From Methanofollis sp. (lineage in GTDB: Archaea > Halobacteriota > Methanomicrobia > Methanomicrobiales > Methanofollaceae), in contig JASGMW010000033.1 of assembly GCA_030156225.1 (NCBI GenBank), positions 1-32,390 of the forward strand: a stretch of 32,390 nucleotides of DNA, read 5' to 3'. The translations under genes were made by a program, and so were the position numbers. Under the pieces are notes generated by a model. The model worked only from the letters and a program-made list of their open reading frames with translations. It ran no database searches and had not been told where the DNA came from. Below are positions 1 to 14,337 of this stretch, in pieces (position 1 is the first letter of the stretch; every line of letters begins with the position of its first letter).

Positions 1-144
1 CGAATACGATGAACCGGCACATGCGTTCTTGTATCGATTGCCACCGGAGCGGGTTCCGGGATACGCACAGAGGTGGATGGATGCGGAAGATTGATAGGTC
101 TAAAATTAATTCGGGATACTACAGTGGAGAGGCACGGGACCATT

Positions 145-313
145 TCAGACGGATTCTTGTATCTTTTTGTAATATTTCAGTGCTTCTGCAGGTTCGAGGG
201 GGCTCTTCGTCGTCTGCTTCGTTGATGTCGTGCGCAAGGCCGCAGTCTTCGATGATGACGCCGACCGGTATGTTGTCTTCGGAGATCACGTGCCGGCGCT
301 TGATTTCAGACAT
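145..313 (-). pseudogene. RelB/Phd-like antitoxin relic, frameshifted
   Basis: Frame 1 reads MSEIKRRHVISEDNIPVGVIIEDCGLAHDINEADDEEP. Removing one C from the C5 run (G5 at 198-202 on +) continues as LEPAEALKYYKKIQESV*, the usual tail of such antitoxins. Confidence 0.6.
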
Positions 314-354
314 CGTTGTTCCCAGACATCGTTGTTCCCAGACATCGTTGTTCC
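307..354. repeat. Tandem direct repeat, 3 x 16 bp (cagacatcgttgttcc)
   Basis: Three identical consecutive units read directly at 307-322, 323-338 and 339-354. Confidence 0.95.
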
Positions 355-661
355 CGGCTGCACGCTGTCATGCCTGATGATAGAAACCATGATCCCCGGG
401 AAGGTGGAGGCGATCCGTGTCCGCACCGGGCAGAAAGGAGGTTGCGGAGGTATGGATGTCGCTCCAGCGGCCCGGTCCTGTCCCTTCACGCGCGCAGGAT
501 CCGCTCGCGCGGAGAGGTTTGCGAAGGCGACACGGTTCGCAACACACGTGCGCGGCGATCTCAGGGATGTGGAGGTTCCTTTCTACTGCACGCGACGATC
601 GATCCCCTCTCAGGTGCTGTTCCGGGTGGAACGGGATGCACGGTTTGAAGGCGGAATTCAC

Positions 662-1291
662 CTATTGTGATTGCCGGATGCATGCCTGTACCCCGGTATA
701 GAACGATTGAAAACTTGCCGATCGATTATTTTCCGGAATCATCATTCCCGATATGTTTGACGCGACTCGAATTTTCTGTTGTGGTCCGGAATAGCCTGCC
801 CGTTGAAGTACCCGTTCGAGCGTCTCCCATGTGTCGATGATTGCATCCGGATCTCGATATTTTACTTTGTTGCCCAGAGTTGCTGGTATTCCGGGATATG
901 CAGCGACAAGCGCGTCTATATCCCCAAAAAACCAGGCTTCGAGTTCATCTATTGCAATTCTATTCAGAACCTGAAATCGACCATCGTGCCGGGGTGAATT
1001 CTTTGTTGCAAGTCCTGCCCCTATCGCGATCTGTTCCAGTTTCTGTTTCAGTAACATACAGTCATCGCGATCTCTGTCAACCAGGACAATGATGGTGTAG
1101 TCTGGCGGGATCCATTTTTTATAGCCTCGCAGTCTGTCAGGCAATTTTTTTAAAATGTCTTTTTTTCCGTTATATGGGTGAATGTTGAACGAATCCTCGT
1201 TTCGTATCATTTTCGGGAAGATACTATTCAGCGCAGCGCGTGCCGATTCTTCTTCAAGGAGGATTTCAATGAGGTACCACCGGGATGTCAT
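662..1291 (-). CDS. DUF4276 family protein
   Basis: EILLEEESARAAL, GKKDILKKLPDRLRGYKKWIPPDYTIIVLVDRDRDDC and ELEAWFFGD motifs typical of DUF4276. Confidence 0.8.
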   Translation of the reverse strand: MTSRWYLIEILLEEESARAALNSIFPKMIRNEDSFNIHPYNGKKDILKKLPDRLRGYKKWIPPDYTIIVLVDRDRDDCMLLKQKLEQIAIGAGLATKNSPRHDGRFQVLNRIAIDELEAWFFGDIDALVAAYPGIPATLGNKVKYRDPDAIIDTWETLERVLQRAGYSGPQQKIRVASNISGMMIPENNRSASFQSFYTGVQACIRQSQ

Positions 1292-1563
1292 CCGGCTGGA
1301 GCCTGCTTGATTGTAAATCTATTATAGAGGTTCCGATAACAAAAGATAGTGGATTTCCTGTGCTAAATAATTTCTGAGTCGCCAGCTCCGCACCTGCTGG
1401 CCGGTGTTTTTTCGCTCTGCCTCTCCGGCGAGATAAGCTCGCCGTTTTCCGGGTCAGGTGCGACGGGGGCGTTGAAGATCATACGTCCGGGCAAAGCATC
1501 TATGGCAATGGTCTTTTCGGGGGGGATCTTCCTGTTTCCCTGACCTGCCCGGGTGGAATCACG

Positions 1564-1875
1564 TCATCCTTCTGCAGAGCAGACCTCGGCGGCGGCAACC
1601 ACGTCGTCCCTGAAATAGCGGCTCAGATCCTGCGGGGTGAGGAGATCGATCTCCTTTCCGCCGAAGGTGCGGGATAGTTCCTCCCGGATCGCAAAGAGCC
1701 GAAAAAATCCCGGGGTGTGGCCTTCTTCGAATTCCACGAGGATGTCTATGTCGCTCTCCGGCCCGAAATCGTCCCGGAGCACAGACCCGAAGAGGGAGAG
1801 TTTCCTGATGTGATATTTCCTGCAGATCTGCCTGATATCGTCATAAGGGACAGGGACATGCGGCGTGCCGGTCAT
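1564..1875 (-). CDS. MNT-type minimal nucleotidyltransferase (MntA-like antitoxin)
   Basis: LSLFGSVLRDDFGPESDIDILVEF = GSxxRxxxxxxSDIDxxV motif; KEIDLLTPQDL. Confidence 0.85.
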   Translation of the reverse strand: MTGTPHVPVPYDDIRQICRKYHIRKLSLFGSVLRDDFGPESDIDILVEFEEGHTPGFFRLFAIREELSRTFGGKEIDLLTPQDLSRYFRDDVVAAAEVCSAEG

Positions 1876-1993
1876 GGCGGATCACTGTAGGTACCTCTGG
1901 CGGTGTCTCCTGATTAAGTGTTCGCAGGGGTGGTGCCGGAAGGTGAGAGCGAGGTCGCCCCTGATCATGAAGGGGTGCTTCCCCCGGTATTGC

Positions 1994-2245
1994 CTACGAT
2001 ACGTCATCCAGGATCTGGAGGAACTGATCTTTTGTCAGGCCGGTTTCTCTGATTATCGTTCGAAGCAGTCCTCTACCTATCATCTCTCCTTCATGGACCG
2101 GGACAACGGTCATTCTTCCGTCGGGGTGTTTGAGGATGATGTGACTTCCTCGCTGCCTGATCGGTTCAAAACCAATGCGCTGGAGGGCCCGAACGATCGT
2201 TCTGCCATCAACAGCCCCCAACTTCGACAAATTGCACCCCGACAA
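1994..2245 (-). CDS. hicA: HicA family mRNA interferase toxin (start codon uncertain)
   Basis: [61 protein letters not shown], a classic HicA dsRBD-like fold with the GSH motif; overlaps upstream hicB. Confidence 0.85.
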
Positions 2246-2423
2246 ATTCCCGATGATCGCTACTGTCTATTCCGCTCACCTCGATATAGAGGGCAATCGC
2301 CTCTTTGATCCGTTCCATCAGTTCGTCGATGCTTTTCGCCTGTGTGTGACATCCCGGCAGAGAGGGAACGTTTCCGACATAGTAGCCGTCTTCGTCTTTT
2401 TCGATCACGACACCGAGTTTCAT
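2208..2423 (-). CDS. hicB: HicB family antitoxin
   Basis: [48 protein letters not shown]. Confidence 0.88.
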
Positions 2424-2514
2424 GGATTCTCAACGTATGATTCATCGATATTTTCTGATATAACAGTATGGTCAGGTCCATGTCGCCCGCAAAACGGTGA
2501 ATGCATGTCGCGCA

Positions 2515-2603
2515 GAGCCGTGGAAGGGGGCCGTAGTGCGCCACGCAGGATGCGAGGAGCGCCGCACCGACGGCGGCGATGCCGGAAGCGTGCAGGCGAT
2601 CCG
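2515..2603. repeat. Dispersed repeat copy A of a small membrane-protein gene fragment
   Basis: About 90 bp near-identical to 4762-4852; minus strand reads DRLHASGIAAVGAALLASCVAHYGPLP. Confidence 0.8.
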
Positions 2604-2651
2604 TTCTATTGGACGTAAAAGGGAGCACCGTTACAGCGAGAACCCGCCGGG

Positions 2652-3095
2652 TTATGATGCATCTGTAAGACGGTGCACCGTAAGAAATGGGCACCTCGTG
2701 AAATCATTGTCGAAAGTCGCAATATCGGTGATCGAGTGTTGAACACATGTTGCAGCGATAAGCGCGTCGTTTGGCAAAAGACCGCAATCGATCATGATTC
2801 GCCGTGCGGTTTCCTCTTCAGAGCGACTGAACGGAATCGTCCGGGCGAGATCGAGAAGTTTTTCGACTTTCAGAAGTTCGGTTTTGATCTCTGATAGAAT
2901 ATCCGGGTTTGCTTTTATTTCATGGGGTTTTCTGCCGGTGTATAATCGTATGAAGACATGGTATACCTCACTCCCGACAATTGCGTTACGGTATATGCGT
3001 TTCTTCTGGGTGAGGGCCAGAAAGTTCCTGTAGATCTCTTTGTCTCCCTCCAGGATTTTAAGGAAGACGTTCGAATCAATGAAGACTCCACTCAT
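2652..3095 (-). CDS. PIN-domain toxin (VapC-like)
   Basis: [48 protein letters not shown] acidic motifs. Confidence 0.85.
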
Positions 3096-3273
3096 CGTCC
3101 AGTTCTTCCAGTGCTTTTGCTGTGTCTTTCCCTCTCAGGAGGCCGAATGCATCTTTGATGATTGAGGATGGCTCTTCTATGGTAATCTGGATTCGCACCC
3201 CTTCTTTCAGATCGAGTTTCTGGAGTGGTCGAAGGACGCCGGATTCATAGACGGCATCGATCACTTTCGTCAT
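3076..3273 (-). CDS. DUF104 / AF2212-like antitoxin
   Basis: [34 protein letters not shown]; overlaps the PIN gene by 20 bp. Confidence 0.85.
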
Positions 3274-3337
3274 GTGTTTCTCCTATGGAGTTCATGGAAT
3301 TGAAGGTATCGCTTGCGCGATCACTTCGAGGTCCGCA

Positions 3338-3523
3338 TCAAAAGATCGTCGTTGTTCTGCCCCGTTCGTTAAGCACGGCCACACATCCGGCGATGGCGTC
3401 CTTGATGTTTTCCAGCGCCTCTTCAAGGGTTTCACCCTCCGAGTGGCAGCCGGGAAGTGCAGGGCAGCTGACGGTGAACCCGCCGTCTTTGTGGTCGGGC
3501 GTGACGACGACTTTGAAGATCAT
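3338..3523 (-). CDS. HicB family protein, orphan
   Basis: MIFKVVVTPDHKDGGFTVSCPALPGCHSEGETLEEALENIKDAIAGCVAVLNERGRTTTIF; ATG at 3521-3523. Confidence 0.8.
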   Translation of the reverse strand: MIFKVVVTPDHKDGGFTVSCPALPGCHSEGETLEEALENIKDAIAGCVAVLNERGRTTTIF

Positions 3524-3526
3524 GAT
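3438..3526. repeat. 89-bp perfect direct repeat, copy 1 (hicB 5' end)
   Basis: Identical base for base to 5670-5758. Confidence 0.92.
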
Positions 3527-3720
3527 CAGATGATGATTGCCGATGGAAGCGGATAATGGTCTGGGAGAAACGAGTCGGGAAACACTGCGCCAGAACCGGG
3601 AGGGCGGAGAAGCGACCGGTCCGGGGTTCATCTGGAGGGTGTGTTCGCGCCTGATGCCTCCGGGGAAAAACCGTGTAGGGCCGGGTCACCTTTATTATCC
3701 CGGACAGAAGAGTACCCGGA

Positions 3721-4197
3721 ATGATGACGATGGACAGCCATGGAGCAGATATGTTCGGGCCGGAAACCGGCCGCCTCCATGTCCTTGACCGGGAAGAGCA
3801 GTCCCGCGTTCTCCGGGCGGTGGGGGATGTCATGGGCCGGTTCCCCGCAGTCTCTCTCGGTTATGTCTTCGGTTCGTTTCTTCGGGGGCCGTTTCATGAT
3901 CTCGACTGTGCGGTCCTCCTCTCCGGGCTTCACTCGCCGTACGAGGCGATGAAGACTGCCCGGCGCATCGAAGGGGAGATCGAACGAGCGGTAGGCTACC
4001 TGTGCGTCGTCGAGTGCCGGGTTCTCAACGATGCCCCGGTCTCGTTTTCCTATGAGGTGATCCGGACGGGGCGTGCGGTGTACGTGCGGGAGCCTTCGGC
4101 AAGAGTCAGGTATGAAGCAGATCTGATCTCGGCCTGGCAGGACTATCAAGAGACACTGACCTGGTTCAACCGGCGATACCTGGAGCGATCGCCGTGA
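3721..4197 (+). CDS. MNT-type nucleotidyltransferase antitoxin (MntA-like)
   Basis: LGYVFGSFLRGPFHDLDCAVLLSG: GSFxRG-x3-DxD motif; overlaps the HepT-like gene. Confidence 0.85.
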   Translation: MMTMDSHGADMFGPETGRLHVLDREEQSRVLRAVGDVMGRFPAVSLGYVFGSFLRGPFHDLDCAVLLSGLHSPYEAMKTARRIEGEIERAVGYLCVVECRVLNDAPVSFSYEVIRTGRAVYVREPSARVRYEADLISAWQDYQETLTWFNRRYLERSP

Positions 4198-4622
4198 TGC
4201 TCCGGGATGAAGAGGGGATCATCGCTCATCTGCGAGAACTGGATGAGGCCCTTTCAGACTGGGAGCGATATCGGGCAGTTTCATATCAGGATTTCCAGAA
4301 GAACCGGGATACGAGAAATATGGTGCTCCACGCACTCCTGATCGGGATTCAGGCGACGATCGATATTGCCAATCACCTGATCGCCGGAGAGGATCTCAGG
4401 CGGCCTTCGACCTATCGTGAGAGTTTTGTCATCCTCTCGGAGCGGGGAGTTCTCACGCCCGAACTTGGAGAGGCAATGGGCGATCTGGCCGGGTTTCGGA
4501 ACGTGCTCGTTCATATCTACTGGCGTCTCAATCTGGAGGAGGTGTATCGGGTGTTGCAGAACGATCTCCCGGTGGTGAGAGAGTATGAGGCTGTGGTGAA
4601 GGGATGCCTGAAAGAAAGTTGA
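4194..4622 (+). CDS. HepT-like (DUF86) ribonuclease toxin
   Basis: LLIGIQATIDIANHLIA...LAGFRNVLVHIYWRLN, with the RxxxxH (RNVLVH) motif. Confidence 0.88.
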   Translation: MMLRDEEGIIAHLRELDEALSDWERYRAVSYQDFQKNRDTRNMVLHALLIGIQATIDIANHLIAGEDLRRPSTYRESFVILSERGVLTPELGEAMGDLAGFRNVLVHIYWRLNLEEVYRVLQNDLPVVREYEAVVKGCLKES

Positions 4623-4761
4623 AGCGGCTTTTTGTTCATGTGTCATCTGGCGTGGTGCCTGCCGCACCGTCCTCCAGTTCTTCACCCCCATCCCCCCCCG
4701 CCGCACGAACCATGCCGCGGCGAAGACGAGCGGCACCCCGATCGGGATGCAATAACCCGCG

Positions 4762-4852
4762 GGGCCGTGGAAAAGGGGGCCGTAGTGCGCCACGCAGGAG
4801 AGGAGGAGCGCCGCGGCGACTACGGCGATGCCAGAAGTGTGCAGGCGATCCG
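4762..4852. repeat. Dispersed repeat copy B of a small membrane-protein gene fragment
   Basis: Near-identical to 2515-2603; minus strand reads DRLHTSGIAVVAAALLLSCVAHYGPLFHGPAGYCIPIGVPLVFAAAWFVRR. Confidence 0.8.
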
Positions 4853-4907
4853 GTGGGGGCCATACTGCCAATGCTTATATCCGGTCGGTTCCATATAGCG
4901 CGCAGGT

Positions 4908-5159
4908 ATGAAGTTCACCATTATACTGGAACGAGATGAAGAGGAGCGGTATGTTGCGGAATGTACCGACCGGCCGGGATGCCTGTCCGGGGGCGACACC
5001 CCCGGGGAGGCGATCCGCAACATCAACGAGGCGATTCCGGGGTGCATCACGTCCCGCCTCAAGGTGGCGGCCGGTTCGGTTCATCTGCCGCCGGTGGATC
5101 GCACCGTCACAACTTCGCTCGATATTTCCGGGCCGACCGATGCCAAAAATGCCCCGTGA
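4908..5159 (+). CDS. HicB family antitoxin
   Basis: MKFTIILERDEEERYVAECTDRPGCLSGGDTPGEAIRNINEAIPG. Confidence 0.78.
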   Translation: MKFTIILERDEEERYVAECTDRPGCLSGGDTPGEAIRNINEAIPGCITSRLKVAAGSVHLPPVDRTVTTSLDISGPTDAKNAP

Positions 5160-5304
5160 ATCCGGGGATAAACATGTCGCCGCCCTGAAACGCGCCGGGT
5201 GGGAAATCAACCATATCGAAGGAAGCCATTCTATCCTTATCAAGAAAGGGATGCCGGTTCACCTGTCGGTTCCGGTCCATGCGGGCAGTCGCGTGGTGGG
5301 ATGA
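5140..5304 (+). pseudogene. HicA family toxin, C-terminally truncated
   Basis: MPKMPRESGDKHVAALKRAGWEINHIEGSHSILIKKGMPVHLSVPVHAGSRVVG*; lacks the usual GTLRxIIKxAGLTxxEF tail. Confidence 0.7.
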
Positions 5305-6473: not shown

Positions 6474-7991
6474 ATGAGAGTTTTAATTGATACGAACATT
6501 CTGATCTACCGTGAAGACGATCGAGACGTCTCTCCAGAGATCAGTACCCTGATGAAGATCCTCAGCAAGACTCATACAGACGTACTGCTTCACCCGGCAT
6601 CATTAAAGGATATTCAGAGGGATAGAAACGAAGAGAGAAAACGGATTACTCTCTCCAAGGTAGAAGCCTATCAAATTCTGGAAAATGCTCCTGTACCCGA
6701 TGAAGACGAAGAATTTTTCGAAAATACTGGAGCGCCAAAGAGAGTCAATGATGAAACAGATAACCTGATTCTTTATTCTGTATATAAAAATGCAGTCGGG
6801 TTTTTAATCACAAACGATAACGGAATCCATTTAAATGCATCGAAACTCGGCATAGCAGACAGAGTATTTTATGTAGAGGACGCAATCGAATTTTTCGGAA
6901 AGGATCTGCCATCATCAGAGGCTGTATCCAAACCTTTCCCGCTGAAAAAAGGCTATGTAAGCGATCTCAATCCAGATGACCCCATTTTTGATACGTTAAA
7001 ACAGGTTTATCCAGAATTTGATGAATGGTTCACGGGTATTGCGAGAGAGGGACGTGAATGCTATTACAACAAACGGATCGACGGAACCCTGGGCGCAATA
7101 ATGATCTACAAATTTGAGGAAGAGCCTATCCCATCCAATCCCCCTCAACCGTCGATGAAACGCCTGAAAATTTCTACATTGAAAGTATCGCATGAGGGGA
7201 ATAAGATAGGTGAACTGCTGCTGAAAGTCGCATTTGGAATTGCAGCGGAAAATCATCTTTCTCAGGTGTATCTTACGCATTTCACCAAAGATGAGGACAG
7301 GCTTGTCTATCTGATTACTCAGTTTGGGTTTAAACAGGTGGGCATATTACCCGGCAATAGGGGCGAAAGAGTATTCGTTAAGAAATTATATCCTGCTGGC
7401 GAAGACTGTAAGGAACGTACTCCGCTACAGATCGCTGGAGAGTATTATCCATCATTTTATGACGGAAACAATGTCGATAAATTTGTCGTACCTATTCGGC
7501 CAGAATTTCATCGTCGTCTGTTCACTGACTTTTATGGTGACGGAAAAAGACAACTCACACTCGATGAAGCCATGGGGGATTTCATCGTAGAAGGTAACAC
7601 CATTAAAAAGGCGTACCTTACCCACAGCAAAATCAAGAAACTGAAAGAAGGAGATCTTGTATTGTTCTATAGATCTCGTGACATAAAAGCAATCACATCT
7701 CTGGGTGTTATCGAAAAAGTCCACTATGCACTGAGTAACCCTGAAGAGATAACAGAAATCATAGGTAAAAGGAGTGTTTATTCCAAATCTGAGATTGAAT
7801 TATTCCAAAAACCGCTTACTGTAATTCTATTTAAACACCATATGAATTTAAAGAATCCGGTCAAATTGTCAGTATTGATAGAATCCGGCATATTAAACGG
7901 TCAACCTCAAACCATACAGGAAATAGATGATGATGAATTCAGCAAGATCAAGAAACTTGGTGAAATAAATGAACGTTTTACTATCCATTAA
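6474..7991 (+). CDS. PIN - GNAT acetyltransferase - EVE/PUA-like fusion protein
   Basis: N-term MRVLIDTNILIYRED...DNLILYSVYK...FLITNDNGI (PIN); middle ISTLKVSHEGNKIGELLLKVAFGIAAENHLSQVYLTHF (GNAT motif A region); C-term AYLTHSKIKKLKEGDLVLFYRSRDIKAITSLGVIEKV (EVE/PUA-like). Confidence 0.82.
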   Translation: MRVLIDTNILIYREDDRDVSPEISTLMKILSKTHTDVLLHPASLKDIQRDRNEERKRITLSKVEAYQILENAPVPDEDEEFFENTGAPKRVNDETDNLILYSVYKNAVGFLITNDNGIHLNASKLGIADRVFYVEDAIEFFGKDLPSSEAVSKPFPLKKGYVSDLNPDDPIFDTLKQVYPEFDEWFTGIAREGRECYYNKRIDGTLGAIMIYKFEEEPIPSNPPQPSMKRLKISTLKVSHEGNKIGELLLKVAFGIAAENHLSQVYLTHFTKDEDRLVYLITQFGFKQVGILPGNRGERVFVKKLYPAGEDCKERTPLQIAGEYYPSFYDGNNVDKFVVPIRPEFHRRLFTDFYGDGKRQLTLDEAMGDFIVEGNTIKKAYLTHSKIKKLKEGDLVLFYRSRDIKAITSLGVIEKVHYALSNPEEITEIIGKRSVYSKSEIELFQKPLTVILFKHHMNLKNPVKLSVLIESGILNGQPQTIQEIDDDEFSKIKKLGEINERFTIH

Positions 7992-8370
7992 ACCGGTTTA
8001 CACCTCCAGAATAATTGCAGGAACGAAAAAATATGAGTTTCGGAGAGTTATCTTTAGAAGGAAGAACATCAATTCGGTTTATATTTATTCAAGTTATCCT
8101 GTTAAAAAAATCATCGGCAAATTCACAGCAGGTAAGATCCTGGAAGACAGGCCGGATCTGCTGTGGGAGACTGTAAAAGATAAATCAGGACTGAGCGAGT
8201 CAGAATTTTTCAAGTATTTCGCAGGAAAGTCAAAGGGTTTTGCAATAGAGATCGGTGAGTTTACGCTCTTCAAGGATCCCATTGATCCAAGAAAGTGCTA
8301 TAAAAATTTTATTCCTCCTCAATCTTTTTGCTATCTTGACCACGATCTATTAGAAAATCCCCCCAATTGA
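7969..8370 (+). CDS. ASCH-domain (PUA-like) protein
   Basis: MNVLLSIKPVYTSRIIAGTKKYEFRRVIFRRKNINSVYIYSSYPVKKIIGKF, ASCH pattern; overlaps the preceding gene by 23 bp. Confidence 0.82.
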   Translation: MNVLLSIKPVYTSRIIAGTKKYEFRRVIFRRKNINSVYIYSSYPVKKIIGKFTAGKILEDRPDLLWETVKDKSGLSESEFFKYFAGKSKGFAIEIGEFTLFKDPIDPRKCYKNFIPPQSFCYLDHDLLENPPN

Positions 8371-9264: not shown

Positions 9265-10218
9265 TTAAGAAAAATCTGCAAGTGTGGTCATGCGCGAAAC
9301 AGGGTTCTGCTGTTTTGCGAAGTAGCGGAGGAAATCCTGTGGCGATTGGACGGAGGTCGCGGACATGGAGATCAATGCAGTGTGCCCGGCCGTTGCCCCG
9401 GTGTTTGCGGGGTCTGGTTTTATGGAGTAGAGCGGTTTTCCCTGTTTGCGTGCAATCTCTGCCTGCCGGATGGATCCGCCGGATTCGCCGGTTTCGATTA
9501 CGATCACGGCATCGGAGAGTCCACTCGTGATCCTGTTCCTCTCGACGTACCGGCCTTTATGCATTTTTGCGAGATTGGTTACTTCGCTTACGAGGGACCC
9601 CGAAGTGACGATTCTCTGCGAGAGTTCTTCGTTCTCTTTTGGTACGATGTTTGTGAGGTCTCCCGGAAGAACGGCGATCGTTTCGCCGCCGCAGTCCAGT
9701 GCGGCCTTATGAGCATGGGCGTCTGTGCCGCGGGCGAGGCCGCTCACGATCACGTAGCCAAGCGAGACGAACAATTCCACTATTTCACTGATTTTTTCGA
9801 TGCTTTCGGGGCTGATATTTCTTGTGCCGACGATGGCAACTGCGGGCTTCGAGAGGTTTTTTCCGTTCCCTTTCCAGTAGATCATGAAGGGGGGATCGTC
9901 GAGGTCGAGGAGTTTTTTCGGGTAATCAGGATCATATGCCGGCAAGAGTCGGATGCCTTTTTGCCGGTAGCCCCTGATGATGTCGATGTAGAAGTCGAGC
10001 AGGCCGCGGGCGCGAATGTCCGCTGCTTTTTCAAGGATCGGTACGGGGAGGTCCGGATCTGCCCCGATTGCGTGTGCGCCGGTCTCAAAAATATCGGTGT
10101 AGAAGGTATGGAGCGCGGTCGGGTCACTGAAGCGTTCGACATATTCCCTCTTTTTCAGGGAGTGCACGTCGTTGAGGCAGGCGAGAAGCGCCAGTTCCCT
10201 GACGGTGTTGTCACTCAT
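9265..10218 (-). CDS. DprA/Smf-like protein (ShosA-like candidate)
   Basis: AVAIVGTRNISPESIEKI...VIVSGLARGTDAHAHKAALDCGGETIAVLPGDL...ISGLSDAVIVIETGESGGSIRQAEIARKQGKPLY. Confidence 0.9.
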   Translation of the reverse strand: MSDNTVRELALLACLNDVHSLKKREYVERFSDPTALHTFYTDIFETGAHAIGADPDLPVPILEKAADIRARGLLDFYIDIIRGYRQKGIRLLPAYDPDYPKKLLDLDDPPFMIYWKGNGKNLSKPAVAIVGTRNISPESIEKISEIVELFVSLGYVIVSGLARGTDAHAHKAALDCGGETIAVLPGDLTNIVPKENEELSQRIVTSGSLVSEVTNLAKMHKGRYVERNRITSGLSDAVIVIETGESGGSIRQAEIARKQGKPLYSIKPDPANTGATAGHTALISMSATSVQSPQDFLRYFAKQQNPVSRMTTLADFS

Positions 10219-10824
10219 TACGTCTCCTTAATACCTCAAGATGTTCTTTGTTGACCATTCTGCCGAGGACGAGCGACCGGATTTCACCGGCGCCGTGGGC
10301 CCGGAGTACGCTCGCGCACTCCCGTTTTGTGACCATATTGATGCACGTGTCATCGATGAGAAGGATCGACTCACCATTAAAGGTATGGTTGCAGCCGATT
10401 TTTCCTGCGATCTCCCGTTCTTTCAAGCAATGCCTTCTGCAAGAAGGGCCGAGGGATTGTAGCGTCCATCGTTTGATCCCCGCATGACCGGTACAACAAC
10501 GTCGAGATCCTGCAGTTCCGGGTACTGGTGCTTCATGGCGTGGTACATGCATTCCTGAAGCCGGGGGAGTACGGCGGGTTCTGTTTTCAGGCTGCGGATC
10601 TCGTTGCTGAGTATGTCGTCGGGAAACTCGGTTTGATACAGGTATTTCCCGAATGCCCTGACCCTGACCGGCGGATCGTATTTGTCAGAAGTACGGTTGC
10701 ATGCGCCGCAATAGGGATGGGAACGGGCGAAACTGTCCGGGATCGGGTTGCCGCAGACTTCACAATAGGGAGGGTAGAGTATCTCCAGCTCTTTCCCGTC
10801 CGATCTTTTGAATATCTTCTCCAT
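10211..10824 (-). pseudogene. ComF-like phosphoribosyltransferase (ShosT-like candidate), single frameshift
   Basis: First frame MEKIFKRSDGKELEILYPPYCEVCGNPIPDSFARSHPYCGACN...LDVVVPVMRGSNDGRYNPSALLAEGIA*; second frame continues LKEREIAGKIGCNHTFNGESILLIDDTCINMVTKRECASVLRAHGAGEIRSLVLGRMV (PRTase loop). Confidence 0.8.
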
Positions 10825-13399: not shown

Positions 13400-14017
13400 C
13401 AGCCCGGCCCCGCTCTCCTCGTTATCGTTGACGATGCAGACCGCACCGGCCCGGCGGCAGTACGCCGCGGCCCCGTCGATCCGCTCCCGCTTGAAGGCGG
13501 CCGTCACCGGAGAGATGCACGATCGGCGGTCCTGCAATGCGGCAAGGGCGTCGGTAATCCCCCCGGTGACGATCAGGGACTCGCCGTCGATCGCCGACCA
13601 GGCGCCGAAGATCGGCTCTCTCGGGCCGTCGGGGGTGACGATCTACGTCGTGTACTTCGGCGGCGTCCCGTCCCCATGCGTCGGCGTCTCGTCGGTCGCC
13701 CTGGCGATGAAGTAGAGGGGCGCCCTTTCACCGTCCAGGTACGGGAAGACGATCCGCCCGCGGAAGTGATCGGCAACGCCGGTCCGGCCGTCCCTCGCCC
13801 ATCGTTGCACCAGACCGGAGCCGACGATCTCGTCCCCGCCATATCCCGGGTCCATCAGGTGCAGAAGAAGGGCCGCGCCGTCCGCCGGCGCATACCCGAT
13901 CCGGCTGGCCTTCACGAACCGCGGGCGGAACCCATAGCGGGAGAGGAGAAAGGCGCGGTGCCCGTCGGTCAGGTGCCGCTCAAAAAACCGGCACGCCTCT
14001 TCAAGAAGATCGGTCAT
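13400..14017 (-). pseudogene. DnaG-like TOPRIM primase relic, in-frame amber plus 3' frameshift
   Basis: EACRFFERHLTDGHRAFLLSRYGFRPRFVKASRIGYAPADG...FRGRIVFPYLDGERAPLYFIARATDETP..KYTT[TAG]IVTPDGPREPIFGAWSAIDGESLIVTGGITDALAALQ...VCIVNDNEESGAGLR. Confidence 0.72.
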
Positions 14018-14337
14018 GCAACCGCCCCGTCGAGGATCGGGCATCTCGGCCCCTCGCCGTAGTCCAGAAAAAGAAGCGCATGGCTCGCCCTGGTCGCGCC
14101 GACGAAGTACACCCGCCGCTCCTCGGCGCGGCGGTCAGGATCGGTGAGATCGGAGAGGCGGCCCCTGAGACACCCGGTGTGCAGGAGCACCGCGGCCGCC
14201 TCCAGCCCCTTCGCCGCCTGGACCGTATCGACCCGCACCATCCCTGGCGCGATCTCATATCCCCTCGCGGCCGGCTGAAACTTCGAGTGCGATCCCTTCG
14301 AGGAGAGGGATCGGGCCGAGGGATGTTGCAGGGGCGC
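14014..14337 (-). pseudogene. SF1 (UvrD/Rep-like) helicase C-terminal relic
   Basis: GMVRVDTVQAAKGLEAAAVLLHTG (motif V) and DPDRRAEERRVYFVGATRASHALLFLDYGEGPRCPIL (motif VI); ATGA overlap with the primase relic; preceded by an in-frame TGA at 14338. Confidence 0.75.

Follow-up and report, generated by a model that had tools for sequence, protein, structure and literature searches.

We asked whether two overlapping genes of a Methanofollis species, one encoding a ComF-like phosphoribosyltransferase (PRTase) in two reading frames and the other a DprA-like protein, represent an archaeal relative of the ShosTA anti-phage system, and what has become of the toxin gene. The window, by which we mean the whole stretch of 32,390 nucleotides that was analysed, is contig C4 of a draft MAG of 100 contigs that is 88% complete. 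Our analysis indicates that it quite likely carries an archaeal toxin-antitoxin (anti-virus) module of the ShosTA type that has decayed: an 82-bp deletion lies within the toxin gene, and the DprA-like gene has stayed open. The original prediction of an intact dprA-like gene, overlapped by 8 bp by a zinc-ribbon PRTase gene that is spread over two frames, was confirmed in each of these particulars (Table 1).

Table 1. Features of the PRTase-DprA locus, in window coordinates
Feature	Position	Strand	Remarks
DprA/ShosA-like gene, intact, 317 aa	9265..10218	minus	Pfam DNA_processg_A match
Broken ShosT-like PRTase gene, N-terminal part, 133 aa	10423..10824	minus	C4 zinc ribbon and first half of PRTase domain; TGA end made at the deletion junction
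82-bp deletion junction, relative to all intact relatives compared	10424..10425	minus	Out of frame; about 27 codons gone
PRTase C-terminal remnant with the LLIDDTCINMVT (PRPP-loop) stretch	about 10211..10422	minus	Different frame from the N-terminal half
Overlap of PRTase stop and dprA start, 8 bp (ATGAGTGA)	10211..10218	minus	Same in 10/10 intact methanogen pairs measured
Shine-Dalgarno-like AAGGAG directly 5' of the dprA ATG	10224..10229	minus	Read from the sequence; presumed function

The two halves of the PRTase gene matched a PRTase profile with E=6e-66 and 7e-32 in a search of the window's genome, and the gene is present at full length in other genomes of the order Methanomicrobiales, which indicates that the split gene is not a chance match. 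The C-terminal half retains LLIDDT. Intact methanogen PRTases are 230-232 aa long and carry no more than a zinc ribbon N-terminal to the PRTase domain. DNA alignment with relatives also displayed a Shine-Dalgarno-like purine stretch 5' of the dprA ATG; given the position of AAGGAG in the window, dprA could be translated there independently of the upstream frame. In the intact relatives the overlapping genes are probably co-translated.

Across 232 genomes of the order, the DprA clade and the PRTase clade, each used as query, picked out the same 14 genomes, and the two genes are adjacent in all 14; the count takes in two genomes (G122 and G187) whose DprA is truncated where a contig ends. Within the genus the pair is accessory, being found in one of 11 other genomes (G095), whose DprA is 80% identical to that of the window. 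The pair of G095 lies at about 725 kb, and the orthologue of the window's neighbouring gene thiD, together with a matching toxin-antitoxin cluster, lies without the pair at about 2.07 Mb. This distance of ~1.35 Mb from the site orthologous to the window locus indicates that the pair has moved. A related pair on a Halopiger plasmid is found beside an integrase gene. In a sample of the phylum, a PRTase gene adjoins most DprA homologues of the window's kind, and a second PRTase subfamily is DprA-adjacent in 6/6 cases. No relative came up when viral contigs were scanned with the PRTase alignment to look for carriage by viruses, and a single-sequence DprA scan of genome contigs gave none.

The surroundings of the pair point to defence islands. 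In G095 and G064 the pair is preceded by a DrmD-like helicase gene and then a DrmMI-like methylase gene, the latter encoding a Schlafen AlbA_2 domain; the methylase gene has the same orientation as the pair and lies no more than about 15 bp from it. On the far side of the pair are genes of the TPR, viperin (pVip) and CARF types. These names were assigned by PADLOC and Pfam on G095. The neighbours in the window are PDC-M11A/B, HEC-01B, HicA/HicB-, MNT/HepT- and PIN-type genes. Judged from such gene content, the company kept by the pair is that of a defence island.

The nature of the break differs from what had been predicted. Alignment of the window DNA with four intact relatives (G095 of the same genus, G064, G081 and G122) revealed not a single frameshift but a single clean gap of 82 bp at 10425/10424, flanked by GGCATTGCTT on one side and GAAAGAACGG on the other, and 82 was also the best-fitting deletion length against G095. 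The deleted stretch corresponds to about 27 codons, roughly SRRYNKPYLDVLYKTEPYRPLHEIHDLH in G095, and its loss shifts the frame and creates a TGA at the junction. We mapped the lost piece on an AlphaFold model of the intact Methanoculleus sp. FWC-SCC1 orthologue (L032; mean pLDDT 69, with the core at 83-215 mostly confident), where it takes in the last part of helix 124-136, strand 144-146 and the loop leading to helix 159-166. This is where we would place the catalytic hood loop of type I PRTases. A shift of frame alone would not restore the PRTase protein, and from the out-of-frame loss of part of the PRTase core we predict that no functional toxin is made from this copy. Phase variation by slippage, one of three explanations originally offered, can be dismissed since slippage cannot bring back 82 missing base pairs. 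Mis-sequencing fails as an explanation if a simple one-base error is meant, larger assembly errors being considered below; mutational silencing, by an 82-bp out-of-frame deletion, is the best of the three. No second PRTase copy or stray PRTase piece was found in the window's genome assembly, which speaks against a second ShosT copy that works in trans. Deletion between direct repeats was also rejected, because the nearest repeat in G095 (ATCTCCA) has a spacing of 79 bp rather than 82, and we claim no mechanism for the event.

The break looks recent, because private amino-acid changes in the two PRTase halves are no more numerous in the window than in G095 (1 versus 3 and 2 versus 2), leaving no excess on the window lineage. 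The dN/dS values to G095 are 0.14 for DprA and, for the two parts of the PRTase gene, 0.27 and 0.40; they do not serve to date the break, as synonymous distances approach saturation in every comparison except that with G095 and the window lineage shows no excess.

Loss of the PRTase with retention of an open DprA frame is recurrent, with four clear cases and one possible case. In addition to the window, the PRTase gene of G120 is split by an IS200/IS605-type TnpA-TnpB element and its dprA is open (L026:3094-5360), the PRTase core of G315 is absent in frame beside an open DprA, and G282 combines a PRTase frameshift and core loss with an open DprA; the possible case is the draft genome G473, with a perhaps broken PRTase carrying two frameshifts. 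The reverse state, in which DprA would be broken and the PRTase intact, was not seen among the pairs examined. With four or five cases on one side and none on the other, the tally is suggestive at most, and its direction fits a toxin-antitoxin pair. The same tally is compatible with a DprA-like protein that, rather than awaiting decay, is kept after toxin loss for a function of its own, either in DNA repair or in protection against an incoming intact ShosTA. The low dN/dS of DprA agrees with such retention, as does the summary in a review (PMC12593503) by which ShosA is reported to bind DNA and to promote recombination, and not just to block ShosT. We nevertheless consider it unlikely, because an identical asymmetry is expected if loss of the antitoxin first would kill the cell; moreover, the numbers are small, and the apparent recency of the window's break means that selection after the break is not measurable. 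The broader proposal that orphan ShosA-like proteins, left by repeated and independent losses of ShosT in archaea, are kept by selection, whether for a stand-alone role in DNA repair or because they neutralize incoming ShosTA elements, is in our estimation a long shot.

A potential concern with the deletion itself is whether it arose in assembly, so that the organism would possess an intact and working ShosTA-like pair. The fragmented and incomplete state of the MAG lends this some plausibility, and the PRTase halves, with their lack of excess changes, look as they would in an intact gene as well as in one very recently broken. An artefact is nonetheless distinctly unlikely: no repeat with the right spacing is present at the junction, the missing piece is absent from the rest of the assembly, and an independent break of the PRTase is found in G120, a single-contig genome. 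We thus favor a real deletion over an assembly error.

The assignment of the decayed pair to the ShosTA type cannot be read from profile matches. The DprA of the window scored 229 bits with the PADLOC ShosA model, and housekeeping DprA controls from Bacillus velezensis, Enterococcus gallinarum and Klebsiella aerogenes scored 223, 232 and 200 bits, respectively. Ordinary bacterial ComF proteins matched PsyrT at 8e-14 to 4e-21 and ShosT at 2e-8 to 4e-16, better than the methanogen PRTases, for which the values were 4e-12 against PsyrT (G095) and about 2e-3 against the ShosT model. Because the housekeeping controls score as well or higher, we discarded PADLOC hits as proof of identity. Structure prediction supports a PRTase fold for the intact orthologues, based on the confident AlphaFold core at 83-215 and on Foldseek matches to PurF, ShosT and ComF. 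The proposed structural comparison with ShosT was borne out insofar as the modelled orthologue matches ShosT (PDB 8zvd and 8zvc), but these matches are no better than those to PurF or H. pylori ComF, all being at about equal E-values. As ordinary DprA, ComF and PurF match equally well, profiles and predicted fold identify a PRTase and a DprA, not ShosTA as such.

Other evidence separates the pair from competence genes. In the DprA tree the window protein falls in a nine-member archaeal clade of PRTase-coupled proteins (100/98), apart from the DprA of Bacillus, Enterococcus and Klebsiella, the deep branches of this tree being long and unsure. Grouping with ordinary ComF/DprA and a lack of pairing, named beforehand as the outcome contrary to the original prediction, was checked for, and the separate clade and the 14/14 pairing were found instead. 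Obligatory pairing, accessory distribution, defence islands, a low ComF score and the DprA tree together support a ShosTA-type module rather than competence ComF/DprA. The claim of a diverged archaeal ShosTA-like pair with a dead toxin and an open antitoxin therefore stands on adjacency, distribution, context and phylogeny, but not on its ShosA and ShosT profile matches, which are non-specific. That the two are ordinary competence or housekeeping genes, adjacent by chance, is highly improbable: the window DprA narrowly exceeds the NCBIfam DprA cut-off (191.5 versus 191.15 bits) and the PRTase shares a zinc ribbon and a GYNxxxLLA-like motif with ComF, but both genes are missing from 218 of the 232 genomes and always co-occur, the PRTase reaches 28-40 bits on the ComF model versus 115 for real ComF (against a cut-off of 233 that real ComF controls also fall below), DprA lies outside the housekeeping group, and the neighbours are those of defence islands.

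The PRPP loop provides a further distinction. The window, G095, G064 and G158 have DDTCI(N/D)MVT in place of the usual DDxxxTGxT, and the Methanoculleus copies have kept TGAT. Its sharing among these copies marks the (N/D)MVT loop as a conserved divergence of the predicted catalytic loop, not decay. Given this substitution, canonical catalysis is uncertain even in the intact copies of the window's subclade, and substrate handling may differ.

For the bacterial system, our literature searches gave a review summary of the primary mechanism paper (PMC12593503, citing Pu et al. 2025). As summarized there, ShosT, both a phosphoribosyltransferase and a pyrophosphatase, alters nucleotide pools; the DNA-binding ShosA counteracts it, probably through recombination; and T7 Gp0.7 is the trigger. 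By analogy, an intact archaeal pair would consist of a zinc-ribbon ComF-like PRTase as toxin followed by a DprA-like protein as antitoxin. Once unleashed, the PRTase would disturb PRPP/purine nucleotide pools, leading to cell death or arrest, and the presumed DNA-binding partner would counteract it; toxicity, neutralization and an antiviral role would then be expected of the archaeal pair as well. With part of the PRTase core taken by the deletion, the toxin arm would be dead in the window's genome, and the DprA-like gene is left as an open frame.

The pair was compared with known systems. It shares with ShosTA the two-gene PRTase/DprA-like arrangement, the accessory distribution, the proximity to defence genes and the fold matches; it differs in that the methanogen PRTase is a zinc-ribbon ComF-like protein of 231 aa (PDB ShosT chains have 412-424 residues) with an altered PRPP loop and a very low profile score, and in that the toxin is broken in the window. 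Protection against T7 and lambda has been shown for a DprA+PRTase pair carried by P2-like phages (Rousset et al. 2022, PMC9122126). A relative in Salmonella phage SopEPhi (L132) has a short PRTase and then an overlapping DprA in the same order, although that PRTase is clearly closer to the ShosT model (6e-17 versus about 2e-3 here) and its DprA is on another branch of the tree. PsyrTA/RqlHI (RecQ-PRTase with a DprA-like partner) resembles the pair in its domains and in the PsyrT match of the G095 PRTase, but the window's PRTase family has no RecQ helicase domain; RecQ-type versions appear to be present in other archaea (G388, G474). Housekeeping ComF/DprA share the domain families, but not the separate DprA clade, the accessory distribution or the obligatory adjacency. 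ShosTA in archaea has already been reported by DefenseFinder, notably in Asgard lineages (PMC11291487), so that the points of interest here are the diverged toxin branch and the recurrent decay. The former, present in Methanomicrobiales and haloarchaea, comprises ShosTA-type modules with a ComF-like zinc-ribbon PRTase, too distant for current profiles to tell them from ordinary ComF/DprA; the latter is one-sided, as would be expected if the two genes are toxin and antitoxin. A practical warning follows, in that PADLOC matches to ShosA or to ShosT/PsyrT alone do not identify ShosTA.

Several additional observations were made on the gene neighbourhoods. The DrmD-like, DrmMI-like (AlbA_2), ShosT-like and ShosA-like genes form a same-strand four-gene run in two genera (L027:1011-10078 in G095 and L029:341-9496 in G064), adjoining the TPR/viperin/CARF cluster; the four genes may constitute a composite system. 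A search for DrmMI in the genome to which the window belongs found none. On the plus strand of the window, 6474-8370 contains the complete PADLOC candidate system PDC-M11A/PDC-M11B (PIN-EVE and ASCH-like proteins; best match 4e-160). Positions 1-5300 hold a dense toxin-antitoxin/defence cluster with HEC-01B (DUF4276), two MNT nucleotidyltransferases, HepT, HicA, HicB-like proteins and a PIN protein, which is partly syntenic with G095 at 2.068-2.074 Mb. A short minus-strand frame at 13643-14044 encodes a fragment of the N-terminal domain of a DnaG-type primase catalytic core (PF08275, 6e-8), probably from a broken or truncated gene. Finally, on the Priestia megaterium plasmid pNCT2_2 (L133:86-2804), a DprA-like gene overlaps a gene for a 576-aa HAD-IA hydrolase, which may together form a ShosA-like pair whose effector is of another kind.
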